This document shows positions 6,043 to 40,639 of a stretch of DNA of 40,699 nt, piece after piece. The notes below the pieces were generated by a model that saw only the letters and a list, made by a program, of their open reading frames with translations, was not told where the DNA came from and made no database searches. The position numbers and the translations under genes are program-made. The stretch's first letter is position 1; each line of letters begins with the position of its first letter. Origin of the DNA: a virus. The stretch is from positions 1-40,699 of IMG/VR virus record IMGVR_UViG_3300049215_000121; one strand, 5' to 3'.

Positions 6043-7653
6043 ATGCTTCGTCTGAACATTGCCGACCTTTTTTGCGGTGCTGGCGGGACATCTGCCGGCG
6101 CCGTCGAGGCAGCCGAGTTGATGGGCTTCCGCGTGAAGCTGACCGCGATCAACCACTGGGACGTCGCGATCGCCACCCACACCGCGAACCACCCCGGGGC
6201 TCGTCACCTGTGCACGTCTCTGGACAACGTCGACCCTCGCAAGCTTTTCAAGGATGGCGAACTCGACCTTCTGTGGGCGTCTCCTGAGTGCACCCATCAC
6301 AGCACGGCGCGCGGAGGGAAGCCGATCAACGACCAGAGCCGCGCAACGGCCTGGTGCGTGGTCCGCTGGGCTGAGGCGCTCCGTCCGAACGTCATTCTGG
6401 TCGAGAACGTCCCGGAGTTCGAAACGTGGGGCGGCATCGGCAGCAACGGTCGGCCGCTGAAGTCGAAGCGCGGCGAGACCTTCATCGCCTGGGTCAGCGC
6501 GCTGGAAAGCCTTGGCTATTCCGTGGACTGGCGAGTCCTGTGCGCTGCGGATTACGGTGACCCGACTACGCGCCGCCGGCTGTTCGTTCAGGCTGTGCGG
6601 GGCAAGCGGAAGATTGTCTGGCCGGATCCTACGCACGCACCAGCCGAGGACACGGACCTTCTGGGCACGCGCCGGGCATGGGCGACAGCCGAGAATGACG
6701 TCATCGACTGGACGCTCCACGGCCAGAGCATCTTCGAACGCAAGCGTCCGCTCAGCGACAAGACGCTGAACCGCATCTGGGCAGGACTGGAGAAGTTTGG
6801 CCTCGGTCCATTCATGGTCCCGGGACAGGGCGACCGCAGAGGCCAGGTTCCGCGCACCCACAGCACGAAGCATCCGGCGCCAACGGTCACAGCTCAGGGG
6901 CACCTTCACCTTGCAGAACCGTTCCTGATCACCATGGAGCACAAGGGCAGCGTTCGGAGCCTGAAGCGGCCAGTCCCAACTATCACGACCGCTAAAGGCG
7001 GGGCTTTTTCTCTGGTTCAGCCGTGCCTTGTCCGCGTGTCGGGCAAAGAAGACCGTCCTGCAAGATCAGTAAAAGAACCCCTTCACACAGTCACCGCGGG
7101 AGGCGTGTCCCATGGTCTCGTTCAGCCCTTCCTGCTGCCCCAGCACAGCAGCAACAAGGCCCGGTCTGTGAAGAAGCCCGCCCCGACGGTCACGACCACG
7201 ACGCGGGGCCTGGCACTGATTGAACCGTCTCTCCTTCCCCAGCACGCGGGCGGGGTCCTGCGGCCGGTCAGCAAGCCGGCTCCGACCGTGGCGACGGACG
7301 GTGCGATCGCCCTCGTCGAGCCCTTCCTCGTGGAATACTACGGGACGGGCAAGGCCCAGAGCGTGAAGCTCCCGCTGGGGACCGCCACCTGCAAGGCTCG
7401 CTTCGGGTTGGTCCGGCCTGTCGTGATCGTCGACGGCAAGCGCTACCTTTTGGACGTTCGCTTCCGGATGCTGCAGCCGCACGAGCTGGCAGCGGCGCAG
7501 GGTTTCCGCCGGGACTACAAGTTCACCGGCACAAAGACCGAGCAGGTGAAGCAGATCGGCAACGCTGTTCCTCGCCGGCTCGCCCGGGCGCTCGTCTTGG
7601 CTGTTCAGTCACAGCGCAGCGACATCGCCCATCTTCTGGAGGACGCGGCTTGA
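6043..7653 (+). CDS. C5-cytosine DNA methyltransferase with internal repeats
   Basis: 536 residues. Motif I ADLFCGAGGTSAG (7-19), motif IV SPEC with the catalytic Cys83, motif VI ENV (121-123), motif VIII TTRRRLF (about 183), and motif X QIGNAVP near the C-terminus. The enzyme transfers methyl from SAM to C5 of cytosine. Motif IV is PEC rather than the usual PCQ. Between motifs VIII and IX the target-recognition region carries about six repeats of roughly 30 residues with a 'KxPxPTVT...LVEPFLL' pattern. Likely role: protecting phage DNA from host restriction. The ATG follows a TGACC junction. Confidence 0.9.
   Translation: MLRLNIADLFCGAGGTSAGAVEAAELMGFRVKLTAINHWDVAIATHTANHPGARHLCTSLDNVDPRKLFKDGELDLLWASPECTHHSTARGGKPINDQSRATAWCVVRWAEALRPNVILVENVPEFETWGGIGSNGRPLKSKRGETFIAWVSALESLGYSVDWRVLCAADYGDPTTRRRLFVQAVRGKRKIVWPDPTHAPAEDTDLLGTRRAWATAENDVIDWTLHGQSIFERKRPLSDKTLNRIWAGLEKFGLGPFMVPGQGDRRGQVPRTHSTKHPAPTVTAQGHLHLAEPFLITMEHKGSVRSLKRPVPTITTAKGGAFSLVQPCLVRVSGKEDRPARSVKEPLHTVTAGGVSHGLVQPFLLPQHSSNKARSVKKPAPTVTTTTRGLALIEPSLLPQHAGGVLRPVSKPAPTVATDGAIALVEPFLVEYYGTGKAQSVKLPLGTATCKARFGLVRPVVIVDGKRYLLDVRFRMLQPHELAAAQGFRRDYKFTGTKTEQVKQIGNAVPRRLARALVLAVQSQRSDIAHLLEDAA
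6868..7425 (+). repeat. Protein-level tandem repeats in the methyltransferase
   Basis: Six imperfect units, each with K(K/R/E)P.PT(V/I)T followed 15-20 residues later by L(V/I/A)(Q/E)PFL. The DNA repeats are diverged; the pattern is clearest in protein. Units start at the motifs KHPAPTVTA, KRPVPTITT, KEPLHTVTA, KKPAPTVTT, SKPAPTVAT and KLPLGTATC. Confidence 0.75.
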
Positions 7654-8540
7654 GCACGGAAGCCACAGTCGAAGAACGTCCTGTCGAGACGCTGGAGCAG
7701 ACCATCGCGCGTCTTGCTGACGTCATCGGCCACCTAAACCCGAAGCGATGGGGCAAGCACGACGAGATTGATCGGGTGGCCTTCGAACTGCCCAGCCTGC
7801 CGAGGATGAACGTGCACACGCTGGCAGCGCTGACGAAGCATCCGCTGGCGAACGAGATGGTCCGCGTGAAGTGCAACCACTGCCCGACCACCTTCGAGTG
7901 CCGGCGCATCGTTGCTCCATTCGTGGCCTGCGACGCCTGCATCGAGAAGGCCACCCACGACGAGAAGATGAAGCTGCACCAGCGCTACTGGGAGCACGTC
8001 TGCCCCGAGCGCTTCCGGAAGACTGACCCGAAGCACAAGGACTTCCCGCTGGCAGTCTTCAAGGACCTGCGGAAGGAGGATCCGAAGAAGAGCCTGTTCC
8101 TCTACGGGCCGACGGGCACCTGCAAGACGCGGGTCGGCATGCTGCTCCTTCAGCACCACTTGGTGCGCGACCAGCGCGTGGGCGTCCTGTGGCCGGAGAA
8201 ACTGCGCTCGCTGGTTCAGGGCTTCGACAACTCCACCTTCGACCAGTATGCGAACTACGACGTCCTCCTGATGGACGACGTTCTGCTGAGCGCCTGCCGG
8301 GAGAGCAAGCTGGTTGATGTGGTGAAGCAGCTGATCGACGTTCGCATGCGCCACGAGCGGCCGTTCATCATCACCAGCCAGATCGGCCAGGAGGACGAGC
8401 TGAAGGAGGGCAAGGAGTTCGGGGAGGCGAAGAGCGCGGACCTCGAGCGCATCAAGGCCGTGCTCCGTCGCCTGCGCGAGGAGTGCAAGGTGGTCAGCTT
8501 TGCCACGGCGAAACCGGCGGAAGGGGAGACCGCGTTCTGA
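7650..8540 (+). CDS. DnaC-like AAA+ ATPase with zinc-finger module
   Basis: 296 residues; TTG start overlapping the upstream stop (TTGA, 7650-7653). Cys75, 78, 84, 94 and 97 form a probable zinc site, followed by an AAA+ domain: Walker A GPTGTCKT (153-160) and Walker B LLMDD (206-210). Layout and the RPFIITSQ segment match the DnaC/DnaI/IstB helicase-loader class. The Walker A residue before the Lys is Cys158 instead of Gly. Probably loads the replicative helicase of the host, with the DnaT-like protein at 5624 as a partner. Stop overlaps the next ATG (TGATG). Confidence 0.75.
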   Translation: MSTEATVEERPVETLEQTIARLADVIGHLNPKRWGKHDEIDRVAFELPSLPRMNVHTLAALTKHPLANEMVRVKCNHCPTTFECRRIVAPFVACDACIEKATHDEKMKLHQRYWEHVCPERFRKTDPKHKDFPLAVFKDLRKEDPKKSLFLYGPTGTCKTRVGMLLLQHHLVRDQRVGVLWPEKLRSLVQGFDNSTFDQYANYDVLLMDDVLLSACRESKLVDVVKQLIDVRMRHERPFIITSQIGQEDELKEGKEFGEAKSADLERIKAVLRRLREECKVVSFATAKPAEGETAF

Positions 8541-11113
8541 TGAAGCCCATCGACAAAGACTATGATTCTTTCCTCCGCTCCAAGGTGAAGCTCGCGGAGA
8601 CATGGGGTTTCGATGTTGCCGAGTCTCAGCTCAACCCAGGGCTAAAGCCGCACGCGCGGGCAATTGTGCGCTGGCTTGTCACCGGGGGCCGTCGGGCATG
8701 CTTCGCCGCGTTCGGCCTGCACAAGACTGTCATCCAGTTGGAGACCGTCCGCCTGGTCCTCGAGCGTGTTGGCGGTCGCGGACTCATCGTCATCCCGCTT
8801 GGCGTGCGTCAGGAGTTCCGCCGCGATGCAAAGCAGATCCTCGGCTGGTCCGAGGCTCCGAAGTTCATCCGCTCAATCGCGGAGGCCGGCGATACCGGCA
8901 TCTACCTCACCAACTACGAGACCGTGCGCGACGGCAAGCTCGACCCTGCTGGCTTCACCGTCGCGAGCCTGGACGAGGCCTCGGTGCTGCGCGGCTTCGG
9001 TGGCACCAAGACTTTCCGCGAGTTCATGCGCCTGTTCACCGGCGATGGTGGCCCGACCGGCAACCACCGGAAGGATGGGAAAAGCGTCAGCTACCGCTTT
9101 GTGGCCACGGCCACGCCGTCGCCCAACGAGTATATCGAGCTGCTGGCCTACGCCGACTTCCTCGGCATCATGGATGTCAGCCAGGCGAAGACCCGGTTTT
9201 TCAAGCGCGATTCGACCAAGGCCGACCAACTCACCATCCATCCGCACAAGGAGCGCGAGTTCTGGCTCTGGGTCGCCTCGTGGGCCATCTTCCTGCAGCG
9301 GCCGTCCGACCTCGGGTTTTCCGACGAGGGCTACGTGCTGCCACCGATCGAGGTGCGCTGGCACGAGGTGCCCACGGACCACAGCGAGGCCGGCCACGAG
9401 CGCTCGGGTCAGTCCAAGCTGTTCCGCGATGCCGCCATTGGCGTGCAGGACGCGGCTGCGGAGAAGCGCATCAGCCTCGACACCCGCATCGCCAAGCTGC
9501 TCGAAATCCGCGCCGAGGACCCGGGTGCGCACCGCATCATCTGGCATGACCTCGAGGCCGAGCGCGCCGCGATCGAGGCCTCGCTGCCCGGCGTGGTGAG
9601 CGTCTACGGCTCCCAAGACCTCGAGGAGCGCGAGCAGGCGATCGTGGATTTCTCCGACGGCAAGTTTCAGGAGCTCGCGGCCAAGCCCGTCATCGCCGGC
9701 AGCGGCTGCAATTTCCAGCGGCACTGCGCGTGGGCCGTGTTCCTCGGAATCGGTTTCAAGTTCAACGACTTCATCCAGGCCATCCACCGCATCCAGCGGT
9801 TTGGCCAGCAGCGGCCGGTGCGGATCGACCTGATATTCACCGAGGCCGAGCGCGAGGTGCGCAAGCAGCTCGAGAGGAAATGGACCCAACACAACCACAT
9901 GGTGGCAAAAATGACTGAAATCATCCGCGAATACGGCCTCGGCCACGCCGCAATGGCGCACACCCTCACCCGCAAGCTCGGCGTCGAGCGCGTGGAAATC
10001 ACCGGGCCCGGCTACCGCCTGGTCAACAACGACTGCGTGCAGGAGATCCGCCGCACCGCGGCCAACAGCGTGGGGCTTCTCCTGACCTCGATCCCGTTCT
10101 CCACCCAGTATGAGTATTCGCCCAACTACGCCGACTTCGGCCACAGCGAGGGAAACGCCGAGTTTTTCGAGCAGATGGATTTTCTCACGCCCGAGATGCT
10201 GCGGGTGCTGCAGCCCGGCCGCATCGCCGCGATCCACGTGAAGGATCGCATCGTGCCCGGCGGGCTCACGGGCATGGGTTTCCAGACGGTCTATCCGTTC
10301 CACGTCGAGTGCATCCGGCACTACGTGCGCCACGGCTTCGCCTACATGGGGATGAAAACGATCGTCACTGACGTGGTGCGCGAGAACAACCAGACCTACC
10401 GCCTCGGCTGGACGGAGCAATGCAAGGACGGGACGAAGATGGGCGTGGGCATGCCGGAATACCTGCTGCTATTCCGCAAGCCGCCGTCGCAGTCGGTGAA
10501 CAGCTACGCCGACCAGCCCGTGGTGAAGTCCAAGGAGCGCTATACGCGCTCGCGCTGGCAGATCGACGCCCACGGCTTCACCAGGTCCTCGGGCAACCGG
10601 CTGCTGCGCCCGGAGGAGCTGCGCGACCTGCCGCATGACGCCATCTTCCAGATCTTCCGCGACTACTCGCTCAACCGGGTCTACGATTTCGAGCACCACG
10701 TGAAGCTCGGCGAGGCCTTGGAGCAGGATGGCCGGCTGCCCGTCACCTTCATGCTCCTGCAGCCCCAGAGCTGGCATGATGACGTGTGGACCGACATCAC
10801 GCGCATGCTCACGCTCAACGGCGCGCAGGCCGCCAAGGGCAAGGAAATGCACCTTTGCCCCATGCAGTTCGACCTGGCGGATCGCGTCATTGAGCAATTC
10901 AGCATGCCCGGCGAGACCGTGCTCGACCCATTCGGCGGCCTGATGACGGTGCCCTATCGCGCCATCCTGAAAAAGCGGGTGGGCGTGGGCTTCGAGCTCA
11001 ACCCCGCCTACTTCATCGACGGCGCCAACTACTGCCGCGCGGCCGCGGAGGAGATGGCCATGCCCTCGCTGTTCGATGTGCAGCAATTCGAAGCACCAGC
11101 CTCGAGGACCTGA
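8540..11113 (+). CDS. SNF2-type helicase fused to a DNA methylase
   Basis: 857 residues from the ATG at 8540. The N-terminal half is a SF2/SNF2-like motor: Walker A-like FGLHKT (58-63), motif II LDEAS (144-148), motif III TATPSPN (190-196), motif VI HRIQRFGQ (416-423). The C-terminal half is a beta-class amino-methyltransferase with permuted motif order: a catalytic-loop equivalent TSIPF (516-520), where DPPY or SPPY is usual, and SAM-binding VLDPFGG (794-800) with GFELNPAYF. Such fusions are widespread in phages and are thought to be adenine or N4-cytosine methylases acting while translocating. His61 in Walker A is unusual. Overlaps the upstream gene (TGATG). Confidence 0.8.
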   Translation: MKPIDKDYDSFLRSKVKLAETWGFDVAESQLNPGLKPHARAIVRWLVTGGRRACFAAFGLHKTVIQLETVRLVLERVGGRGLIVIPLGVRQEFRRDAKQILGWSEAPKFIRSIAEAGDTGIYLTNYETVRDGKLDPAGFTVASLDEASVLRGFGGTKTFREFMRLFTGDGGPTGNHRKDGKSVSYRFVATATPSPNEYIELLAYADFLGIMDVSQAKTRFFKRDSTKADQLTIHPHKEREFWLWVASWAIFLQRPSDLGFSDEGYVLPPIEVRWHEVPTDHSEAGHERSGQSKLFRDAAIGVQDAAAEKRISLDTRIAKLLEIRAEDPGAHRIIWHDLEAERAAIEASLPGVVSVYGSQDLEEREQAIVDFSDGKFQELAAKPVIAGSGCNFQRHCAWAVFLGIGFKFNDFIQAIHRIQRFGQQRPVRIDLIFTEAEREVRKQLERKWTQHNHMVAKMTEIIREYGLGHAAMAHTLTRKLGVERVEITGPGYRLVNNDCVQEIRRTAANSVGLLLTSIPFSTQYEYSPNYADFGHSEGNAEFFEQMDFLTPEMLRVLQPGRIAAIHVKDRIVPGGLTGMGFQTVYPFHVECIRHYVRHGFAYMGMKTIVTDVVRENNQTYRLGWTEQCKDGTKMGVGMPEYLLLFRKPPSQSVNSYADQPVVKSKERYTRSRWQIDAHGFTRSSGNRLLRPEELRDLPHDAIFQIFRDYSLNRVYDFEHHVKLGEALEQDGRLPVTFMLLQPQSWHDDVWTDITRMLTLNGAQAAKGKEMHLCPMQFDLADRVIEQFSMPGETVLDPFGGLMTVPYRAILKKRVGVGFELNPAYFIDGANYCRAAAEEMAMPSLFDVQQFEAPASRT

Positions 11114-11115
11114 CC

Positions 11116-11658
11116 ATGCCCCGCGTCCTCGACATAACCGGCGAATACCCGGCCGACTGGAAGGAAATCAGCGACCGCGTCTGGGCTGAAGCTGGTCACC
11201 GCTGCATCCGCTGCGGTCATCCCTACCGCAAGGGCGAGCACGGAAAGGGACAGTGGACGCCCTGCGACAGTCTTTGCCGTCATGGTGGACCACTTGCTGT
11301 CCTACGGGACGGCGATGTTGAACCGACCCGCCTCGCACCGAGGACCGCGATCGCTGCGATGGCCGAGTTCGACCGCGTGGGAATCGTCGTTGCCGAGTGG
11401 CGCGTCGCCACCGTCCACCACTTCGACGGCAACAAGTCGAACTGCGTCTGGTGGAACCTCCTCGCGCTCTGCCAGCGCTGCCACCTGAAGACGCAAGCCC
11501 GGGTCGACCCACAGGTCCCCTACATCCTCGAGCACTCCGACTGGCTGAAGCCCTACGTGGCCGGCTTCTACGCCCATAAATACGAAGGCCGCACCATCAC
11601 CCGGGAGGAGGCCGTCGCGCAGATGGACCGGCTCTTGGCCTACGAACGACTCGCATGA
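11116..11658 (+). CDS. HNH endonuclease
   Basis: 180 residues. C30xxC33 and C119xxC122-H123 form a zinc knuckle. Between them lies the HNH core VHHFDGNKSNCVWWNLLALC (about 100-119), with the catalytic His pair at 101-102, and the central Asn at 106 or 114. C50 and C54 suggest a second zinc site. HNH enzymes nick or cut DNA. It could be a homing enzyme, but it sits in register in the operon (TGACCATG junction upstream, ATGA overlap downstream), which argues for a phage-core role rather than an intruding element. Confidence 0.8.
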   Translation: MPRVLDITGEYPADWKEISDRVWAEAGHRCIRCGHPYRKGEHGKGQWTPCDSLCRHGGPLAVLRDGDVEPTRLAPRTAIAAMAEFDRVGIVVAEWRVATVHHFDGNKSNCVWWNLLALCQRCHLKTQARVDPQVPYILEHSDWLKPYVAGFYAHKYEGRTITREEAVAQMDRLLAYERLA

Positions 11659-13391
11659 ACCTTGAACTCGGAACCACCCAGCGCGGCACAGCCTTCCGGC
11701 TCCCGCTTGAACTCGCGACGCAATCGACCGCCATCCTGGCGAAGCGAGGCGTCGGCAAGACCTACACCGCCGCGGTCATCATGGAGGAGCTCCTTGCCGC
11801 CGGTCAGGTGCCCGTCGTCATCGACCCCACGGGCGCCCATTGGGGCATAAAGGCCAGCGCTGACGGCAAGGGGAAGGGCTTCCCCGTGGTCATCTTCGGC
11901 GGCGAGCACGCCGACCTCCCGCTCGAGGAAGGCTCCGGTGAAGCCATCGTCCGCGCCATCGTCGAGCAGCGCTTCCCGGCGATCATCGACGTCTCCATGC
12001 TCCGCAAGGGTGCGGTGCGGCGGTTCATGGTCGCCTTCCTCGAGACGCTCTACCGCCTGAACCGCCTGCCGCTGACCCTCGTGGTCGACGAGTCGGACGA
12101 CATCTGCCCGCAGAAGCCTTTCGGGGACGAAGCCCAGATGGTGGGGGCGATGGAGGACGTCGTGAAGCGAGGCCGGAAGAAGGGCCTCGGCGTCATCCTG
12201 ATCACCCAGCGGCCGGCGGACCTCGCGAAGCAGGTGCTGACACAGTGCGAGGTGCTGGTGGCAATGCGCCTCGTTCACCCGCTCGACATCAAGGCAGTCA
12301 TGGAGTGGGTCCACGTTCACGCGGACACCGAGCGGGCCCGCCAGATGGTCGAGAGCCTGCCTAGCCTGCCGATCGGCACGGCCTGGTTCTGGTCGCCCGG
12401 CTTCGGGGATATCTTCGAGAAGGTCGTCGTGCGGCGCCGGACCACCTTCGACAGCAGCGCCACCCCGAAGCCCGGCGAGAAGGTCATCACGCCGAAGCAG
12501 CTCGCCCAGGCCGACCTGACGAAGCTGGGAGCCGACATCGCCGCATCCTTGGAGCGGGCGAAGGAGAACGACCCGGCCGCGCTGAAGACGAAGCTGGCGG
12601 CGTTGCAGAAGGAACACGCGAAACTGACCGCTGACCTCGCCAAGCCTCAGCCGTCCAAAGTCGAGACTGTCCAGCTCCCGGTCCTCTCGGATGCCGACCG
12701 GGCTGTCCTGGATGGCATCAGCCACCGGCTCGCCGAGATGGCCGAAGATTTCGCGGACGTCATTGGCGGCGTCACGAAGCGAATCGAGGTGTGCGAAAAA
12801 GCGCAGGCGTCGGCCGTTCCTCGCACGCCGCCGGCCCGCCCCCAGCGGACGGACGGCATTCTCCCCCGTGCTACTGCTACCCTTCGCGTTCAGGGCGTCT
12901 CCCATGTTCAGGCGCCTGCCCCGGAGGTCGGCACCGGCGGAAAGCGCCGGATCCTGATCGCCCTCGCGCAATACCCGGACGGCATGGCTGCCCGGAAGCT
13001 CTCCCTGCTGACCGGCATCTCGGCCAGCGGTGGCACGTGGCGGACCTATTTGGGCGAGCTGCGGGGTGCTGGATGGGTGGAAGGTGGCAGCGACCACATG
13101 CGCATCACCGAGGCCGGCGTGGCTGCGCTGGGCTCCTACACCCCGCTCCCGACCGGCGAGGCTCTGCGCGAATACTGGCGCCAGCGTCTCGGCGACAGTG
13201 GCAAGCGCCGCATCTTCGACGTCGTGGTCGAGGCCTACCCGCGCGCCCTGTCCTACGAAGAGGTCTCGCAGGCGACCGGCATCGACACCGCCGGCGGGAC
13301 TTGGCGGACCTACCTCGGGGAATTGCGGGGCCTCGAGTTGCTGGTCGGCCGCGGTGACCTGAAGGCCAGCGCTGAACTCTTCGAGGACTGA
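11655..13391 (+). CDS. HerA/FtsK-like ATPase with two C-terminal winged helices
   Basis: 578 residues; ATG coupled by ATGA to the HNH gene. Walker A GVGKT (32-36), IDPTG (56-60), Walker B VVDES (143-147), and the TQRPADL segment after it are typical of the HerA-FtsK superfamily, DUF87-like branch. A coiled-coil linker follows (about 290-345). The C-terminus has two tandem winged-helix repeats, each starting GKRRI and sharing GGTWRTYLGELRG exactly. HerA-type ATPases pump DNA and usually work with a nuclease. The adjacent HNH gene is a candidate partner, by position. It is not the packaging ATPase, which is encoded at 38313. Confidence 0.75.
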   Translation: MNLELGTTQRGTAFRLPLELATQSTAILAKRGVGKTYTAAVIMEELLAAGQVPVVIDPTGAHWGIKASADGKGKGFPVVIFGGEHADLPLEEGSGEAIVRAIVEQRFPAIIDVSMLRKGAVRRFMVAFLETLYRLNRLPLTLVVDESDDICPQKPFGDEAQMVGAMEDVVKRGRKKGLGVILITQRPADLAKQVLTQCEVLVAMRLVHPLDIKAVMEWVHVHADTERARQMVESLPSLPIGTAWFWSPGFGDIFEKVVVRRRTTFDSSATPKPGEKVITPKQLAQADLTKLGADIAASLERAKENDPAALKTKLAALQKEHAKLTADLAKPQPSKVETVQLPVLSDADRAVLDGISHRLAEMAEDFADVIGGVTKRIEVCEKAQASAVPRTPPARPQRTDGILPRATATLRVQGVSHVQAPAPEVGTGGKRRILIALAQYPDGMAARKLSLLTGISASGGTWRTYLGELRGAGWVEGGSDHMRITEAGVAALGSYTPLPTGEALREYWRQRLGDSGKRRIFDVVVEAYPRALSYEEVSQATGIDTAGGTWRTYLGELRGLELLVGRGDLKASAELFED

Positions 13392-18404: not shown

Positions 18405-19214
18405 ATGACCCTGATGCGCGTCGGTGATCTCATTCCACAACTCGTGAAGGACCGAATCCGACTTCTTCGAGCGTCACGTTCCTTTTCAACATACGCCGAA
18501 GCAGCGGCCTCCATCGCCGAGGGCTATGATTCTGACGAGGTGGCTTTAGTGGTGTCACGAAAGACCGCCGCTGCGCGCGAACAGATGCCGACCACCGTTA
18601 TAGCGAAGCCGGAAGATGTCCGCGTGCTGGCGGCGCTTCGCCTTGTTGAATCATCGGACGTGATCCGCGTGCTGGACTTCGGGGGCGCTGCTGGGACGCA
18701 TTACCTCTTCGCCCGGCATGTGCTCCCTCGCAACGTCCGGCTGAACTGGTGCGTGGTCGAGACGCCGTCGATGGTGCGAGTGGCTTCTCCCTTGATGGCG
18801 AACGAGGAACTGACCTTTGCCAGTTCGATTGCCGAAGCAGTGCAGCGGATCGGGTTGCCTGATTTGGTCTTTTCCAGCGGAGCCGTGCAGTATGTTCCGG
18901 ACACCGTCGCCACGGTGAACGAATTGCTGGCTATCGGTGCCAAGGCTATCTTCCTGACCCGGTGGGGGCTGACGGATGGCGCTCAGTTCTCCATCGTGCA
19001 GACGAGCGCCCTTTCCTCGAACGGCCCGGGCCCGCTCCCTGCTGGGTTCTCCGACCGCCTAGTGCGCTATCCCGTAACTTTTGTTAATCGTCAGACTATC
19101 GAAACGGCCATCCGGGCACGCTATTCCTTGCCGCTGGTCCTGGCCGAGGCCCCGAAGGCCTATCCCACCCGCGCTGGTTGGGTGCCGATGTTCGGGTTTT
19201 TCGGGGTGTCCTGA
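18405..19214 (+). CDS. TIGR04325-type SAM methyltransferase
   Basis: 269 residues from the ATG at 18405. VLDFGGAAGTHYLF (89-102) is the SAM-binding loop, followed by CVVETPSMV (around 118) and LVFSSGAVQYVPD, the signature of the TIGR04325/LIC12133 family. These enzymes occur in surface-polysaccharide loci, so this one could modify host LPS or capsule, for example to exclude other phages. The gene is bracketed by terminators (18371-18394 and 19242-19265), and its third-base usage is visibly less GC-rich than the operon before it. Both fit a moron acquired by transfer. How it is transcribed past the upstream terminator is not clear; its promoter may lie within 18290-18400. Confidence 0.75.
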   Translation: MTLMRVGDLIPQLVKDRIRLLRASRSFSTYAEAAASIAEGYDSDEVALVVSRKTAAAREQMPTTVIAKPEDVRVLAALRLVESSDVIRVLDFGGAAGTHYLFARHVLPRNVRLNWCVVETPSMVRVASPLMANEELTFASSIAEAVQRIGLPDLVFSSGAVQYVPDTVATVNELLAIGAKAIFLTRWGLTDGAQFSIVQTSALSSNGPGPLPAGFSDRLVRYPVTFVNRQTIETAIRARYSLPLVLAEAPKAYPTRAGWVPMFGFFGVS

Positions 19215-33095: not shown

Positions 33096-34238
33096 TCAGC
33101 GGCTCGCCTTGGCGTTGCCAAGGGTGTTGTCCTTGCTGGCGTCGTAGACGCCGAGATTGCGCTGGTGCTCGGCGTATTTTTCCGGGTGGGAGGCCATCAC
33201 CTGGCGGTGGGCGTCCGAGCGCTTCAGCTTGCCGTTCGAGGCGGCGACCGTCTCGTCGACGATCTGGAGGTAGGACTTCTCGCCCTTCGCCTTCTCGGCG
33301 GCGAGGCGCTGGGCCTCGGTCTCCGCGGCGGCATCGGCGCCACCGGAACCGCCCTTCGCGTCGCCCTTCTTCAGGCCGAGCGCGGCGGCTTCCTTCTGCA
33401 GGGTCGCGAGACCCTCGGTCACCGCGGCGAGCTTCTCGGCCGTCTCTTTCTGCTGCGCGGCCATCTTGGCCATCGCATCACCGTCGCCGTCCGTTTTCTT
33501 CGGCGCGACAGCGGCCTGGAGGGCGGTCATCGCTTCGCCGAGCTTGTTGATCGCGGCCATGCAGTCGTCGATCGTGAGGGTTTTCTTGTCGTCGGAGGCC
33601 ATGTGTTGAAGGGATTCGGGTTTTGCGGTTTTCAACCTTGGCGTTTTGTCCACGCTTCGGTTGAGAAAAAGTCCGTCGTGCGTGATCGCGCCCTCGTCCA
33701 CGATGTCGACGCCGTAGAGCTCCGAGATGCGCATCAGCGCGCGGTCCTTGAAAATCTCGAACTCCGGCAGCATGTCGATCGACAGGCCGATCAGCTTCGG
33801 GGTTTTCGCGGCGGTCTCCAGGACGACGTCGCGGTCGCGGTAGGAATCGTTCAGGTGCAGGTCGCAGATGACGCGAGCCGGGACCACCTTGTCCGAGCCG
33901 ACCTCGGGACCGGCCGGGACCTTCTTGAAGTTGTCGGCGTAGCCCGCGCGCGCCTCGAGGGAATCGTCGTGATCCGAGCGGGCCTTCAGCACCCCGCCGG
34001 CCATGTCCGCCGCGGCCATGATGGTGTCGAGCGTCTGCTCGTCGGTGACGACCTTCAGCTTCCGTGCGGCCAGCTTCGGGTCGCGGGTCAGGTTGCCGTC
34101 CTTGTCCAGGAAGACGAACTTGCCGGTCGCCTCTACGCCGGCCTGGGCGACGGTGACGCCGCGAAGCACGCCGGCCTTCGAGTCCACGGCGCCGGCGTGG
34201 AGCTGCATCGTCAGTTCGTGTTCGGAGATGGTCGTCAT
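33096..34238 (-). CDS. Capsid maturation protease fused to scaffold
   Basis: 380 residues. Residues about 1-200 look like a prohead protease: HDDS (about 91-94), DLHLNDSYRDRDVV (about 128-141) and LIGLSIDML (about 151-159), with the Ser in the GLS motif as a plausible nucleophile. From about residue 213 the protein changes to Ala/Lys/Glu-rich coiled coil (MAKMAAQQKETAEKLAAVTEGL), typical of scaffold. An in-frame ATG at 33601 could make a scaffold-only product, as in lambda C/Nu3. Coupled by ATGA to the portal gene. Confidence 0.7.
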   Translation of the reverse strand: MTTISEHELTMQLHAGAVDSKAGVLRGVTVAQAGVEATGKFVFLDKDGNLTRDPKLAARKLKVVTDEQTLDTIMAAADMAGGVLKARSDHDDSLEARAGYADNFKKVPAGPEVGSDKVVPARVICDLHLNDSYRDRDVVLETAAKTPKLIGLSIDMLPEFEIFKDRALMRISELYGVDIVDEGAITHDGLFLNRSVDKTPRLKTAKPESLQHMASDDKKTLTIDDCMAAINKLGEAMTALQAAVAPKKTDGDGDAMAKMAAQQKETAEKLAAVTEGLATLQKEAAALGLKKGDAKGGSGGADAAAETEAQRLAAEKAKGEKSYLQIVDETVAASNGKLKRSDAHRQVMASHPEKYAEHQRNLGVYDASKDNTLGNAKASR

Positions 34239-35803
34239 TTTGCTACCTCGAGGCCCTTGTCCACGGCTTCCACTTCGGCGGGGGCCTTGATGCCGGCACC
34301 CGGGTTCGGGAATTTCTTCATCAGGTAGGGCAGCACCACCTCGAACGGCTGCTTCGTCTTCGTGGCGATGCGCTGCGCGGCCTGGAAGATCGCGAGGGTG
34401 TTCTGCTCGATCTGCAGGTTCACCTCCTCGATGGTCTTGTTGTTCTCGAGGGCGTATTCCTGCGGGGACATAACGCCCGCATCCATCAGCTTGACGTCGG
34501 CATCGACCTCGCGGCCGTAGTCGACGGAGATGGCCCGGCCCATCTGCCAGGTGCCCTTGAACCGTTCGAGCTTCCGGTCGAGGCCGTATTTCGCGAGGTC
34601 GAGGTAGCCGGTCTGGATGCCCTTCTGGATCAGCCGGTTTTTGTAGGGGTTGAGGAGCATCCGCTTCAGCCAGCGCTTCTCCTCGGCGAAGGTGGCCTCC
34701 GCCTTGTTCACGTAGAACCGCTGGACGACGCCGCCCGACTCCGAGCGGTAGCAGAATTCGAGCGGGAGCTTCGCGCCGATGGCGCAGTCGCGCTTCAGGT
34801 CCTCGATCAGCGGCCGGTATTGCTGGTTCGGGAAGTCGTTCGGGTATTCCATCACGCCCTCGTCGAGCTTCAGGTATTGCTGGGTCACGTCGCCGACGTT
34901 GACGCTCAGCGGCCGGGGCACGCCGGAGGGACTCGCGGCCTGCTCCTCGTAGCCGGTGCCGCGCGGGCGCCCCTGCTCGTTGACCACGTAGGGCAGCTGG
35001 CTCGCGCGCCACTTGATGTTCAGCTTCGTAAAGTCCGAGATTTGCTTGATGTCGAAGCCGTTCTCGATGGCGTTCATGAACACCGTGACGCCGTGATACT
35101 GCTCGAAGCGGAAGGGGTCGTAGTAGTGGATGAACTGGTTCGGCTCGACGCTCTGCTGGAAGACGTAGGCGTTCAGCTTCGGGAGCCGGCGGTAGATGTT
35201 GAACTTGACCGGGCGGCCTGAGATGGGATCGACCTCGATCCCGTTGTAGTCGTAGGCGCTGACGCCCGCCGCCATGGTCGGATTGCCGATGCGGTCGCCC
35301 GAGATGTAGGACAGCTTGATGGAGTCCGTCTCGTCGATGAGCATGAACCCGCACTCGCCGTCGCGCTTCTTCGTGCGCACCGCGAGCCGGGCGATCTTCG
35401 TCAGGTCCAGGCGCTGGGACCAGTCGCACTGGTCGAACTGCCACTCCAGAAAATCGTTGATCGCCTTGTCGGCTTCGGCGTTGCCCGTGCCGGCGCGGTA
35501 GCAGAGGTCGCCGACCACGAAGGTCTCGAAGTCGCCGAGGATGCCGTCGAAGAAGGGAAAGTCCTCCTCGAGCTGGCGCGCGGCGCGGATGAGCACGATC
35601 CGCTCGTAGGCCTGCTTGTAGTCGTCGGGCGTGGAGAGCTGGTTCGGGCTCGGCCGCTTGTTGCCCGGCTCGGCGCCGGCGTAGAGCAGCATCTTGCGCG
35701 CATCGGCGCCCCGCCGGTTGAGGTCGAGCATTTCCCGGGCCCGGGCGCGGTCGAGGCGCAGTTCCCCGGTGATGGCCTTGTGGATGAGGGTGGCGAAGTT
35801 CAC
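34235..35803 (-). CDS. Portal protein, lambda type
   Basis: 522 residues, GTG start in a GTGA overlap with the gpW-like gene. The family features include ERIVLIRAARQLEEDFPFFDGIL, KKRDGECGFML, HYYDPFRFEQYHGVTVF, LKLDEGVMEYPNDFP, and the C-terminal WQMGRAISVDYGREVDADVKLMDAGVMSPQEYA, equivalent to the 'vDP..e..A....i..G..t..e' ending of phage_portal_2 proteins. It forms the dodecameric DNA channel and binds the terminase. Length is normal for the family. Confidence 0.85.
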   Translation of the reverse strand: MNFATLIHKAITGELRLDRARAREMLDLNRRGADARKMLLYAGAEPGNKRPSPNQLSTPDDYKQAYERIVLIRAARQLEEDFPFFDGILGDFETFVVGDLCYRAGTGNAEADKAINDFLEWQFDQCDWSQRLDLTKIARLAVRTKKRDGECGFMLIDETDSIKLSYISGDRIGNPTMAAGVSAYDYNGIEVDPISGRPVKFNIYRRLPKLNAYVFQQSVEPNQFIHYYDPFRFEQYHGVTVFMNAIENGFDIKQISDFTKLNIKWRASQLPYVVNEQGRPRGTGYEEQAASPSGVPRPLSVNVGDVTQQYLKLDEGVMEYPNDFPNQQYRPLIEDLKRDCAIGAKLPLEFCYRSESGGVVQRFYVNKAEATFAEEKRWLKRMLLNPYKNRLIQKGIQTGYLDLAKYGLDRKLERFKGTWQMGRAISVDYGREVDADVKLMDAGVMSPQEYALENNKTIEEVNLQIEQNTLAIFQAAQRIATKTKQPFEVVLPYLMKKFPNPGAGIKAPAEVEAVDKGLEVAK

Positions 35804-36116: not shown

Positions 36117-36758
36117 TCAGCTTTTGACCCGCTCGTAGACGGCGGTCACCTCGTATTGCCAGTGCATTTCGAGCCGCTTGAGGCGGAATTTGCCCGACTT
36201 CGTGAAGTGCCAGTCCAGCTCCTCGAACCGCCAGTAATGGAACCACGCCCCGTCCTGCCCGTCGACAGCCCGGTCGATGTTCCTCCAGTCCTTGACGATG
36301 CAGCGCCAGGCGATGCCGGCGGAGGCGACCCGCACCATCTCCGCGATCAGCGCCGCGCGCATGTCGTCCGGCAGGTGCGGCAGGACGTCGAAGGTGGCGA
36401 TCAGGTCCACGGAGTTGTCCGCCAGCGGGAGCGTCCGGCCGTCGTAGAGGAAGCAGTTCCCGCCCGCCTCCGGGATCTGGTTGTCGATGGCGTATTTCGA
36501 CACGTCGAACCCGAAGGCCCGCTTCAGCCGGGCCCGCCAGTAGGCGACCTCGAAGCCCAGCGCGCAGCCGATGAAGAGGGCGGACTCGTGGGCGACCTGC
36601 TGGCAGGCGCCCCACTTGATCGCCAGTTGCTGGGCCTGCTCCTGGCTGCCGTAGCGGTAGTCGCGGAAGCCCCCGCGGGCTCCGCCGCCGTAGTAGCCGG
36701 CGTCGTAGTAGGCGGGGTCGTAGTGCTTCTCGCCGGGCTGGGGTGCTGGTGTGTTCAT
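36117..36758 (-). CDS. Class I SAM-dependent methyltransferase
   Basis: 213 residues from the ATG at 36758, which overlaps the glycosyltransferase stop (ATGA). ALFIGCALGFEVAYW is a slightly degenerate SAM-binding loop, followed by FGFDVSKYAIDNQ, PLADNSVDLIATFDVLPHL and EMVRVASAGIAWRCIV, the order of Methyltransf_11/25-type enzymes. Such enzymes often methylate sugars or glycolipids. The pairing with a glycosyltransferase suggests that both modify a glycan on virion or host. Inserted between terminase and portal, which is unusual. Confidence 0.75.
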   Translation of the reverse strand: MNTPAPQPGEKHYDPAYYDAGYYGGGARGGFRDYRYGSQEQAQQLAIKWGACQQVAHESALFIGCALGFEVAYWRARLKRAFGFDVSKYAIDNQIPEAGGNCFLYDGRTLPLADNSVDLIATFDVLPHLPDDMRAALIAEMVRVASAGIAWRCIVKDWRNIDRAVDGQDGAWFHYWRFEELDWHFTKSGKFRLKRLEMHWQYEVTAVYERVKS

Positions 36759-38299
36759 CGTGTGGCGCGGTCGACCCGCTTCGTCCAGTGCTTGAAATCT
36801 TCGAACTTCAGCCCGTGCCGGTGATACCACTCGGCGGCGAGTTTCCGGTTCCAGATGTTGCCCGGGTTGGTCTTGAAATTCTCCTCGGCCTCCCAGAACG
36901 AGCGGTGCTTCTCGTGGTAGATTGCCGCCTCGATCTCGCACTCGACGCCGGCGGTCAGCTTGATCAGCGACCGGAACACCTCGTCGTTGTGCTCCCGTCC
37001 CATCAGCAGGTCCGGGCAGTCGTGGCCGTGGGCCTTCCACCAGCCGAGCGTGCAGAAGAAGGCGTCGCTCCCGGGATACCATTTGCCGCGGCGGACCATG
37101 GCCTCGGTGACGAATGGCTTCGACAGCGCGGGGAAGTCCCAGCGGTGCGTGAAGGCGGCGCCGTAGCGGGCGCACTTCTCCAGCACCTGGCCGGTCAGCC
37201 CGGGGGCAAAGGATACATCAGCGTTTGACCATGCGATGATGTCGGAGTCCTGCCGGCAGTAGGGCACGCCGTGGTTCATCAGGTCCGGCACGAACGGGAC
37301 CGGGTGCGTGTCGCCGACCTCGAGGGAGGTCCGCGCGCGGCCGGAGGGGAACTCCGCACGGTGCCAGCGGCCCGGGGCGAAGGTATACTCCTGATCCCAG
37401 GAGGCCCGGGCGTTGCGCATCCGCCGGAGGTTCTCGTGGTCGGGCTTCTCGTCCTTTCGGAAGTCGGCCCAGACGTGGATGATCCTCGGCAGGGTGCGGA
37501 CGTCCCGGGCGTTGACGATGCGCTCGACCAGCGTGCCGTCGATCAGGGCCTGCGGGACCTCGTTGTAGAACAGCCGCGCGACGTGCGACGGGCGCCAGGA
37601 GGAGGCGTGCCAGTCGGTCGGGTATGGGTTCACCAGCGAGACGACGGGCAGCTGCGGCGTCGCGTGCGCAAGGTGGAGCGTGCCCGTGTCGATGGTCACG
37701 AGGCAGTGCGCCAGGTCGTAGAGGGCGAGCAGGTCGTAGAGCCGGTTGACCCGGATTGGGGTCATGTCGAGCACCTGGAAGCCAGCCGGCAGGTCGCGCA
37801 CGAGGGCCTCGCGCAGCCCGCGCGCGTAGGGGAACGGCGACGAGATGCCGTCGAGGTTCAGGAGCACCAGCTTCCGGGCCGGGTCCAGCCCGCAGCGCCG
37901 GAGCAGCTCGGCCTCACGGTCCGCGTCGCGCCGGTCGATGGTCAGCGGGAGCGTGCCCCATGGCACCGAAGCGTTCGCGCTGCACCAGGACTCCCGGTCG
38001 AACGAGATGCAGCTCTGGGCGTTGGCCAGCCCCTTGCCGTAGATTTGCCCGACGGTGATGTTGTCGGTCAGCTTCCGGGCCTCGAACATGGCCGGGATGA
38101 ACTCCTCGAAGGGCCCGCGGTAGACCGCCGGCTCGACGTAGGACACCCCGTCGAGCAGCCCGACGAAGGCCTCGGCGACCATGTAGATCGGCCGCTCGCC
38201 GCTCTCGCGGAAGATGCGCTCCGCCAGCGGGAGGGAGTTGAAGATGTCCCCAGCTCGGCCGAGCTGCAGGAAGAGGGGTCTGCCTTTGGGTTCGATCAT
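36755..38299 (-). CDS. Two-domain glycosyltransferase, GT9-like N-terminus
   Basis: 514 residues. The N-terminal 265 residues resemble GT9/heptosyltransferase GT-B enzymes: FLQLGRAGDIFNSLPLAERI at the start and CLVTIDTGTLHLAHATPQLPVVSL at about 212-235. The C-terminal 240 residues (DIIAWSNADVSFAPGL, GAAFTHRWDF, MGREHNDEVFRSLI) look like a separate GT-A-type sugar-transfer domain with an Asn-Ala-Asp motif in place of DxD. The gene lies 14 bases after the large terminase and is coupled to the methyltransferase. A role in glycosylating capsid or tail proteins, or host LPS, is inferred. Confidence 0.7.
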   Translation of the reverse strand: MIEPKGRPLFLQLGRAGDIFNSLPLAERIFRESGERPIYMVAEAFVGLLDGVSYVEPAVYRGPFEEFIPAMFEARKLTDNITVGQIYGKGLANAQSCISFDRESWCSANASVPWGTLPLTIDRRDADREAELLRRCGLDPARKLVLLNLDGISSPFPYARGLREALVRDLPAGFQVLDMTPIRVNRLYDLLALYDLAHCLVTIDTGTLHLAHATPQLPVVSLVNPYPTDWHASSWRPSHVARLFYNEVPQALIDGTLVERIVNARDVRTLPRIIHVWADFRKDEKPDHENLRRMRNARASWDQEYTFAPGRWHRAEFPSGRARTSLEVGDTHPVPFVPDLMNHGVPYCRQDSDIIAWSNADVSFAPGLTGQVLEKCARYGAAFTHRWDFPALSKPFVTEAMVRRGKWYPGSDAFFCTLGWWKAHGHDCPDLLMGREHNDEVFRSLIKLTAGVECEIEAAIYHEKHRSFWEAEENFKTNPGNIWNRKLAAEWYHRHGLKFEDFKHWTKRVDRATR

Positions 38300-38312: not shown

Positions 38313-40160
38313 TCATTCGGTTTTGAAAAGGCCCGCCATCAGGCCGAGGACCACGAGCTCGCACTCGCAGTCGTAGAGGTGATCCGGCCAGCCGCCGATG
38401 CGCGGCCAGGTGCGCTTCTCCTGCCCGCCCTTGTCCGGTTCCAGGACGCAGCGGTGGGAGTTGATGTGCTCCGCGTATTCGGGGCAGAAGTCCATGATGT
38501 CGGACGGAACCTCGAACTCCCCACCCTTGCCGGCGCGCAGCCGGGCGAGGATGTCCTGCACCTTGTTCGAGGACCAGAGGTGGTAGATCGCGCTCTGCCG
38601 TCCCTGCTCCACGGTGCCGTAGCCGATGTCGATCTTCCGGGGCTCGGTGAAGAGCATCAGCTTCCCCGTAAAGGGTGAGTCCCCGCCGTGCAGGAACTCG
38701 TCCCGGTCCGAGCCCATCAGGCCGAACCACTTGTATTTCGCGCAGACCTCGTCGACGGTGGTCGGGTCGTGCCGGCGGTCGACGACCGTCCACGGGCCCG
38801 GCCGCGTCATGCTCCAGTCGGGCACGCCGAGCTCGAGCTGCTTCTCCCGGCACTCGCTCCACTCGTTCAGCCGGCCACAGTCGACCAGCCGGCTCTGCAC
38901 CCGGCCCCCCGCGTCGGGCTTCGAGAACGCCCGGCACACGAACCAGCGGTGCGGGATGTCGCCCATCTTGCCGCGCTGATTGTCCATCGCCATCAGCCGG
39001 ATCCACTCGTCCTTCCAGGCCTTCGGCTTCAGCACCTCCTGTCGGGTGTAGCTGCCGAGCCGGATTTCCTTCGTCATGATGACCGGCTTCTCCTCCCAGA
39101 ACTCGGCGAGCTCCTCGGTGATGAACGTGCGCAGCGCCTCGGGGGCGAAGAGCCCTCCACGGATGCTCATGCGCACCCACGGCTCGAGGATGTCCGCCCA
39201 ATGGCGCGCGCCGATGGCGAAGGAGTTGACCTGGATCGAGACGATCTCCGGGTTCGCGTCCGGGTTCTGCGCGATCGCCACGCCGTTGCGGTTCAGCTTC
39301 GCGAGCAGGTCCTCGTCGTAGTCGATCCGGTGTCCGCAGTGCGACTGCGGGCAGACCGCGTGCACCGTCTTCGCGAACTCCCGCAGGTCGAGCCGGCCGT
39401 CCTTGTGGACGATGACCTTCGTCAGGTCGAAGCGGATGTTGCAGAGCGGGTGCTTGTTGTCGAAGACGTAGCGGAACGGCTGCCCGCAGGCCGGGCAGTG
39501 GTGGTGCCAGACCAGCTGGTTGCCGGCGAGGAACCGCTCCTCGAGCTCGCTGCCTTTGTCACCGCCGACCGAGATGTTCAGGATCTTCCGCGTCTGCTTG
39601 TAGGCCCGCAGGCGGGAGTGCATCTGCTTCAGCCACGGCCGCTGCCAGAGGTGCACCTCGTCGTTGACCTGATACTCGACCGAGTCCGACTGCCGGTTCG
39701 CGTCCTCCTCGGCGCCCTGGGCGATCAGCCAGGTCCCGTCCGCGAAGATGATCTTGCCCTTCTTCTTTTTGTTCGGGTTCGCGTGCAGCTTCGCGCGGAC
39801 GGCCGGCATCGAATCCAGCATCTGCTCCCAGCGGGTCTCCTGCCAGTGCTCGGCCTTCTTGTTCGTCTTGACGTTGAAGGCGATCTTCCCCGGCCGCGTC
39901 GCGATGGTGTGGCCGATGCAGACCTCGGCCGCGACCGTCTTGCCCGACTCCTGCGGGGGCATGATGACGGTGATCTCGCGGACGTAGGGGTTCTTCCAGG
40001 CGCGATAGATGTCCCGCGTCCATGGGTAGTTCGCCACGTCGAACCGGCCCTTCGCCGCGGCCCGGTTCCCGAAGTCGACGTTCTCCGCCGCCCAGTCGTG
40101 AATCTCCCGGCGATCCGGGAGGACGACCGTGTCGGTGTGGATGCGGGCGACGAGGTTCAA
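38313..40160 (-). CDS. Terminase large subunit, GpA family
   Basis: 615 residues from a TTG at 40160 that overlaps the small-terminase stop (TTGA); no ATG occurs in the first 110 codons. Walker A is MPPQESGKT (67-75) in the GpA style, Walker B around YQVNDEVHL (163-171). A zinc-type CPACG cluster with further CPQSHCG lies at about 225-290. The C-terminal nuclease region has acidic residues (WTVVDRRHDPTTVDEV..., KIDIGYGTVEQG). It cuts concatemers and pumps DNA through the portal. Lambda GpA makes cohesive ends, so a cos-type phage is likely. Confidence 0.9.
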   Translation of the reverse strand: MNLVARIHTDTVVLPDRREIHDWAAENVDFGNRAAAKGRFDVANYPWTRDIYRAWKNPYVREITVIMPPQESGKTVAAEVCIGHTIATRPGKIAFNVKTNKKAEHWQETRWEQMLDSMPAVRAKLHANPNKKKKGKIIFADGTWLIAQGAEEDANRQSDSVEYQVNDEVHLWQRPWLKQMHSRLRAYKQTRKILNISVGGDKGSELEERFLAGNQLVWHHHCPACGQPFRYVFDNKHPLCNIRFDLTKVIVHKDGRLDLREFAKTVHAVCPQSHCGHRIDYDEDLLAKLNRNGVAIAQNPDANPEIVSIQVNSFAIGARHWADILEPWVRMSIRGGLFAPEALRTFITEELAEFWEEKPVIMTKEIRLGSYTRQEVLKPKAWKDEWIRLMAMDNQRGKMGDIPHRWFVCRAFSKPDAGGRVQSRLVDCGRLNEWSECREKQLELGVPDWSMTRPGPWTVVDRRHDPTTVDEVCAKYKWFGLMGSDRDEFLHGGDSPFTGKLMLFTEPRKIDIGYGTVEQGRQSAIYHLWSSNKVQDILARLRAGKGGEFEVPSDIMDFCPEYAEHINSHRCVLEPDKGGQEKRTWPRIGGWPDHLYDCECELVVLGLMAGLFKTE

Positions 40161-40639
40161 CCGCCCTCCTTCAGGCCGAGGGCCCACTGGCCCTCCTTCA
40201 GCCTCTTCAGCACCCAGTCGATCGCCTCGGCGTTCATCTGCTGGCACTCGACCATCCCCCGGCCCTTGTATTTCCCGGGCAGCTCGATCTCGAACTTCTG
40301 CCGCAGGTCGGCCGTCAGCCCGGCGTTGTAGGCCGCGACCGCCGGCGCGATCTGGGACTTCTTCACGAGCTCACCCCGCCGCAGCAACCGGGCGTCCTCC
40401 ATCTCCTCGATCTCCAGCCGCTGCTTCTGGGCCCGCAGCTGGTTGACCTCGGACCCCTCGACATTCCCGCTGCCATGCTCGGCGATGTAGTTCCTCACCG
40501 CCGCCACGTCGTAGCCGGTCTTCGGATCGGGCTTCGGCGCACCATCCTGCAGCAGGTATTTCTGGACCGTGGTCCGCGAGAGCTTTAGCACCCGCACCAG
40601 GTCGGACTTCGTGACCTTTTTCGCGTCGGTTTTGCTCAT
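40157..40639 (-). CDS. Terminase small subunit, Nu1-like
   Basis: 160 residues. N-terminal HTH (SDLVRVLKLSRTTVQKYLLQDGAP), a short NYIAEHG segment, a coiled-coil helix (EVNQLRAQKQRLEIEEMEDARLLRRGELV) and a C-terminal helical region, in the order of Nu1-type small subunits. It binds the packaging site and recruits the large subunit, whose TTG overlaps its stop. ATG at 40639. The region upstream, through the joined ends, is the likely packaging-site zone. Confidence 0.85.
   Translation of the reverse strand: MSKTDAKKVTKSDLVRVLKLSRTTVQKYLLQDGAPKPDPKTGYDVAAVRNYIAEHGSGNVEGSEVNQLRAQKQRLEIEEMEDARLLRRGELVKKSQIAPAVAAYNAGLTADLRQKFEIELPGKYKGRGMVECQQMNAEAIDWVLKRLKEGQWALGLKEGG

Follow-up and report, generated by a model that had tools for sequence, protein, structure and literature searches.

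A predicted two-domain glycosyltransferase and a methyltransferase between the terminase and portal genes of an uncultured phage

What purpose do a glycosyltransferase and a methyltransferase serve between the terminase and portal genes of a phage? The question is raised by the uncultured-virus record IMGVR_UViG_3300049215_000121, whose 40,699 nucleotides, analyzed over their full length, we refer to as the window. Its head-gene stretch is read on the minus strand (Table 1). The original prediction placed a glycosyltransferase (GT) and a methyltransferase (MT) in the order TerL-GT-MT-gpW-portal, and both the open reading frame (ORF) calls and the sequence agree with the coordinates, strand, and order that it gave. 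The presence of the two genes between TerL and a gpW-like/portal pair is confirmed. The TerL stop and the GT start lie 13 nucleotides apart with AAGGAA ahead of the GT, the GT stop overlaps the MT start as ATGA, and a GTGA overlap joins the gpW-like ORF to the portal gene. No promoter or terminator was seen on the minus strand within the stretch, and map position suggests that the GT and MT are expressed late. The proposed gpW between the MT and the portal gene holds by position and size, but the ORF matched no Pfam or PHROGs family. The Methyltransf_11 match of the MT, the GT counterparts found at the same site in relatives (46 to 54% identity), and third-position GC contents (GC3; GT, 0.93; MT, 0.94) like those of the head genes (0.89 to 0.95) argue that neither gene is a chance ORF.

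Table 1. Features of the terminase-portal region of the window and motifs of the GT
Feature	Position	Strand	Basis
Terminase small subunit	40157-40639	-	First in gene order
Terminase large subunit (TerL), GpA type	38313..40247	-	GpA_ATPase 9.7e-25, phrog_15 7.6e-40; directly upstream of GT
Two-domain glycosyltransferase (GT), 514 aa	36755..38299	-	ORF, predicted model, Foldseek/VIA matches, 27-sequence alignment
GT N-terminal half, residues 1-267, predicted GT-B fold	37499..38299	-	3tov, 1psw, and TibC matches
GRAGD, residues 14-18	38246..38260	-	G17 and D18 invariant, 27/27
DTGTLHL, residues 204-210, putative GT9 nucleotide-sugar-site motif	37670..37690	-	hhalign to WaaC
GT C-terminal half, residues 271-504, predicted GT-A fold	36788..37489	-	SpsA, AvpGT; Foldseek
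NAD, residues 359-361, N-x-D replacing D-x-D	37217..37225	-	N359 and D361 invariant
IYHEKH, residues 460-465, candidate metal/acceptor histidines	36905..36922	-	H462 and H465 invariant
ATGA overlap, GT stop/MT start	36755..36758	-	Sequence
Class I SAM-dependent methyltransferase (MT), 213 aa	36117..36758	-	Methyltransf_11 6e-10
gpW-like small ORF, 95 aa	35800..36087	-	Position and size; 49-67% identity in four relatives
Portal protein, lambda family	34235..35803	-	Phage_portal_2 6.4e-22, phrog_21 2.8e-25

The GT was modeled from an alignment of ten relatives (pLDDT 87.1, pTM 0.87), and in the model a GT-B half of heptosyltransferase (GT9) type and a GT-A half make up one chain. By VIA-align, the predicted N-terminal half matches 3tov (Z 16.1 over 255 residues, 3.8 A) and further heptosyltransferase-type structures (1psw, Z 16.0; WaaC, Z 14; TibC, 4rap, Z 14.4), consistent with a GT-B fold like that of WaaC and WaaF. 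NDH-PSI subunits and UDP-GlcNAc epimerases also appeared among its neighbors, which we attribute to general GT-B likeness, and phosphotriesterase matches in a search of PDB sequences (E 0.02) were set aside as chance since profile searches gave none. The window GT scores 12.1 bits against the Pfam GT9 family (PF01075), under the gathering cut-off of 22, and we therefore call its N-terminal half GT9-like rather than GT9; two relatives exceed the cut-off (L011, 32.9 bits; L015, 24.1 bits). Together with the structure matches, the score of L011 bears out the two-domain reading of the original prediction. DTGTLHL aligns by hhalign with vDTGlsHLtaA of Escherichia coli WaaC, and none of the 27 relatives departs from D204 or L210. 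The family keeps the D and the HL of the D[TS]xxxHL motif, but the H is replaced by Q in L013 and L021. From what is known of WaaC, we take GRAGD, which lies outside the hhalign alignment to WaaC, to be the counterpart of the N-terminal G-D that holds the catalytic Asp in heptosyltransferases. The N-terminal half accordingly resembles the GT9 heptosyltransferases (WaaC, WaaF, 3tov) and TibC in fold (Z 14 to 16), G-D, and D[TS]xxxHL. It differs from them in an identity of about 13%, the score under the Pfam cut-off, the fusion to a GT-A domain, and the lack of a surrounding lipopolysaccharide (LPS) operon.

The predicted C-terminal half (model residues 271 to 504) matches SpsA (1h7q; Z 10.9 over 190 residues, 4.1 A) and AvpGT (9jn3; Z 10.9), and Foldseek adds RmlT (probability 1.00) and GalNAc-T3, as expected of a Rossmann-like GT-A fold. 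No Pfam or PHROGs family covers it, the nearest approach being L011 against Glycos_transf_2 (E 0.11), and a profile search of PDB sequences with the GT returned no match. It shares with GT-A enzymes of the GT2/GT27 type (SpsA, RmlT, GalNAc-T) the fold, a conserved C-terminal His, and an acidic motif that follows the DxD-bearing strand. Unlike those enzymes, which carry D-x-D or D-x-H, it has an invariant N-x-D. The unusual "NAD" pointed out previously is indeed part of this family-wide motif: D-x-D is absent from the C-terminal half, and N359 and the retained second Asp, D361, are invariant in 27/27 aligned relatives. The motif directly follows strand 354-358 of the model and so appears to occupy the place of the GT-A DxD, with H462 as a candidate third metal ligand. 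Also invariant across the 27 relatives are R386, D388, G410, D412, E436, D439, and E463.

The two halves also occur apart. They are fused in most other phages, whereas adjacent ORFs encode the GT9-like and GT-A-like parts in L061-L064 and L067. L013 and L021 have a further copy of the GT-A half joined to a Stealth_CR2 domain, whose score in L021 stays under the Pfam cut-off. Being split, fused, and re-fused, each half behaves as a unit of its own, which supports two activities within one GT chain. Bifunctional chondroitin and heparosan polymerases (K4CP, PmHS2) likewise join two GT modules in one chain and add two sugars in turn, although their architecture is GT-A plus GT-A rather than the GT-B plus GT-A of the window. 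Several variants of the architecture were observed. The Stealth_CR2-fused copies (L013:9829-11298; L021:9778-11325) lie beside the two-domain GT as a duplicated, re-fused module. Where the two halves are split, a protein of ~500 residues (L061:4385-6001, L062:4511-6001, L064:4514-6001) ends in the GT9-like part, and its first ~245 to 290 residues matched no Pfam family in the search made for L062. The GT ORFs of L048-L054 carry an N-terminal extension of 80 to 90 residues ahead of the GT9-like half; this extension is similar to the beginning of the preceding gene, and both contain a 'PPG.W' segment.

How widely is this protein distributed? Scans of viral and genome contigs for peptide patterns taken from the window GT by itself gave no match. 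The viral family was first revealed by an alignment of two sequences, and alignment-based scans then recovered it in about 30 IMG/VR uncultured-virus contigs from very different phages. The GT matched no cultured phage among 50,697 phage records, no plasmid, and none of the genome contigs; the genome contigs were scanned with a small number of exact peptide patterns, and cellular homologs may exist. By sequence comparison, the family is undescribed in the libraries searched and has no PHROGs or Pfam family of its own.

The original prediction described the two genes as inserted, a description that must be split by gene, as the GT is found across the clade and the MT is specific to the window. 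When relatives were examined for this insertion, four phages (L008, L011, L012, and L045; TerL identity, 54 to 61%) showed the TerL-GT-gpW-portal order, and in all of them the GT is present at the site and the MT is not. In the GT tree, the window groups with L008, L011, and L012 (support 0.98), and the placement of L045 is not confident. The GT is thus a resident of the whole clade, and within it the MT alone is particular to the window phage. The more distant L006 (TerL identity, 38%) has TerL, a 297-bp gap, gpW, and portal without an insert. In L011, genes for a GT17 enzyme and an HNH protein share the gap with the GT. In other phages, the GT and a terminase gene overlap, as seen in L041 (phrog_2, 3.3e-10) and, by resemblance, in L036 and L039. 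It lies a few small genes beyond the portal gene in L017 and L020, and elsewhere, among DNA-metabolism-like genes, in L013 and L021. The terminase-portal gap is the home of the GT in one clade and a favored, not exclusive, location overall.

If the MT is particular to the window within its clade, does it work with the GT? The MT scores 40.1 bits against Methyltransf_11 (PF08241; cut-off, 21.2), as befits its class. No counterpart was present in the nine phages first compared, and an MT-alignment scan of IMG/VR reached only L067/L073 (36% identity) and L072 (46%). In both of these MT-bearing phages the two-domain GT, encoded by two ORFs in L067, lies 1.2 to 1.4 kb away; L067 had first been reached through the GT, and L072, reached through the MT alone, is the independent case. 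Since both other phages with the MT family have the GT within 1.5 kb, sequence linkage supports a functional association of GT and MT, in line with the working link originally proposed. Other methyltransferases adjoin the GT as well: Methyltransf_24 in L017, L049, and L050; FkbM in L020, L062, L064, and L072; and a sugar-type C-methyltransferase in L013. In 29 records, 15 of the 18 Methyltransf_24/FkbM matches fall less than 3 kb from the GT, a region making up 16.5% of the DNA; this count is descriptive only, because the families were picked once their presence near the GT had been noticed and because the records are not independent, and the independent support comes from the reverse search with the MT. 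In L008, the closest relative, roughly 5 kb separate the GT from an FkbM gene. Given the linkage of MT and GT, and the grouping of other sugar-type methyltransferases around the GT of unrelated phages, methylated sugars appear well motivated as the product.

Further neighbors of the GT in other phages include GT17, GT47-like, GT32-like, Stealth, pyruvyltransferase, and GDP-mannose-dehydratase-like SDR genes. A conserved gene of 271 to 283 residues directly follows the GT and overlaps its stop in L048, L050, L051, and L054, with an exostosin GT47-like C terminus (3.3e-11 in L048). Elsewhere in the window, a TIGR04325 methyltransferase gene (18405-19214, plus strand; 109 bits, cut-off 80) has a GC3 of about 0.70, compared with 0.87 to 0.95 in most other genes, and a terminator-like hairpin and T-run just behind it. 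The gene appears to have been acquired recently; its product could be one more sugar-related methyltransferase, and no counterpart turned up in 23 other records that carry the GT. Also on the plus strand are a gene for an 876-residue SNF2-like helicase/DNA methyltransferase fusion (8483-11113; phrog_16, phrog_67), a HerA-like ATPase gene among early genes (11655-13391; NF040819, 2.4e-12), and a dcm-like cytosine-5 methylase gene (6043-7653) whose second half has several 'PAPTVTT'-like near-repeats.

From these observations, the probable product is a small methylated sugar chain, attached either to the phage's own particle or to the host surface. We propose, with roughly even confidence, that GT and MT form a late glycan-building cassette. 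The GT would be a soluble, bifunctional enzyme that builds a short oligosaccharide: one sugar would be added by the GT9-like GT-B half and another by the metal-dependent GT-A half with its N-x-D. The coupled MT would then methylate a sugar of this product, and the acceptor would be a protein of the phage's own particle, resulting in decorated heads. A virion protein seems the likeliest acceptor, and the host surface the second, because the GT is kept in the head-gene operon throughout its clade and because virion glycosylation by phages has precedent in Che8 and other mycobacteriophages. TibC, a relative of GT9 fold, glycosylates protein. Favoring the cassette, the GT occupies the TerL-gpW site in five phages and lies beside a terminase gene in L041. 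The four clade relatives that lack the MT at this site count against the cassette, and the GT among DNA-metabolism-like genes in L013 and L021 counts against a virion acceptor, as the head-operon position is not universal.

Virion glycosylation is described for the mycobacteriophage Che8 and its relatives (Freeman 2023, as cited in PMC11256854 and PMC12619734), and both capsid and tail tube are glycosylated in mycobacteriophages (cited in PMC12619734). Che8-type glycans are placed on capsid or tail proteins by phage-encoded GTs, as we envisage here. The F1 phage Maravista, related to Che8, has its GTs close to the end of the genome (PMC11256854), unlike the window phage with its GT in the terminase-portal gap, and that paper mentions no methyltransferase partner for Maravista. 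A tblastn search of the phage collection, the sole comparison made with Che8-type GTs, gave no match to the window GT.

The same genes could instead alter a host surface glycan, such as LPS core, O-antigen, capsule, or another envelope sugar, late in infection, with the methyl group capping the chain, so as to stop superinfection or the binding of progeny to debris. We regard this as a serious rival, if a tentative one, to which a substantial minority of our belief goes. The GT9-fold relatives of the N-terminal half are LPS heptosyltransferases, the window carries the TIGR04325 methyltransferase in addition, and the partners of the GT elsewhere include pyruvyltransferase, Stealth_CR2, the GDP-mannose-dehydratase-like SDR, and the sugar C-methyltransferase. 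Stealth, pyruvyl-, and FkbM-type enzymes are commonly encoded among capsule or envelope polysaccharide genes, so that a surface glycan fits these partners too. A head-operon position held across the clade is nevertheless odd for a surface modifier. Phage serotype-conversion (gtr) cassettes are likewise phage-borne systems of glycan modification; the interval in the window holds only GT and MT, without a flippase-type gene or membrane GT, and sits among head genes. No flippase and membrane GT beside an integrase or att site was found, the integrase search covering Phage_integrase. The record has no tyrosine integrase (Phage_integrase) and thus gives no sign of lysogenic conversion, which is disfavored.

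DNA hypermodification is disfavored as well. Glycosylation of hypermodified DNA by phage GTs is documented (Pyle 2024, as cited in PMC12619734), and the cytosine-5 methylase-like and helicase/DNA-methylase genes of the window would suit a GT that glycosylates modified bases in phage DNA with the MT in the same pathway. However, the 30 GT-bearing records, some possibly incomplete, yielded no Tet_JBP above its cut-off and no thymidylate-synthase-type gene; the Tet_JBP model was also blank in control genomes, which weakens its negative, and we consider this reading very improbable. It also seems highly unlikely that GT and MT are cargo without a role in the window phage that settled after the terminase gene, in a gap where insertions are tolerated. 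The gap does accept insertions, as it takes HNH-type genes in L011 and, by sequence reading, in P8625. Yet the GT holds the same site in five phages with invariant motifs, the GC3 of both genes matches that of their neighbors, and the GT-MT linkage recurs in unrelated phages.

Glycan modification by phages is a known kind of system; what is new here is the architecture and the reproducible partnership of the GT with methyltransferases. To our knowledge, phage-encoded glycan enzymes are numerous and their acceptors seldom known. In its most specific form, which we consider possible but rather doubtful, many uncultured phages would have a virus-specific family of bifunctional GT-B/GT-A enzymes that, with a dedicated MT, attaches a methyl-capped oligosaccharide to the head proteins as the particle is assembled. 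The fusion of GT-B and GT-A halves without a Pfam or PHROGs family of its own is of interest to carbohydrate enzymology. The architecture of the GT is easy to recognize, its variant metal site is conserved, a methyltransferase recurs as its partner, and in one clade it keeps to a single position within the head operon. With these features, whether a given phage puts glycans on its own particle becomes a question that coexpression of a few genes can test.
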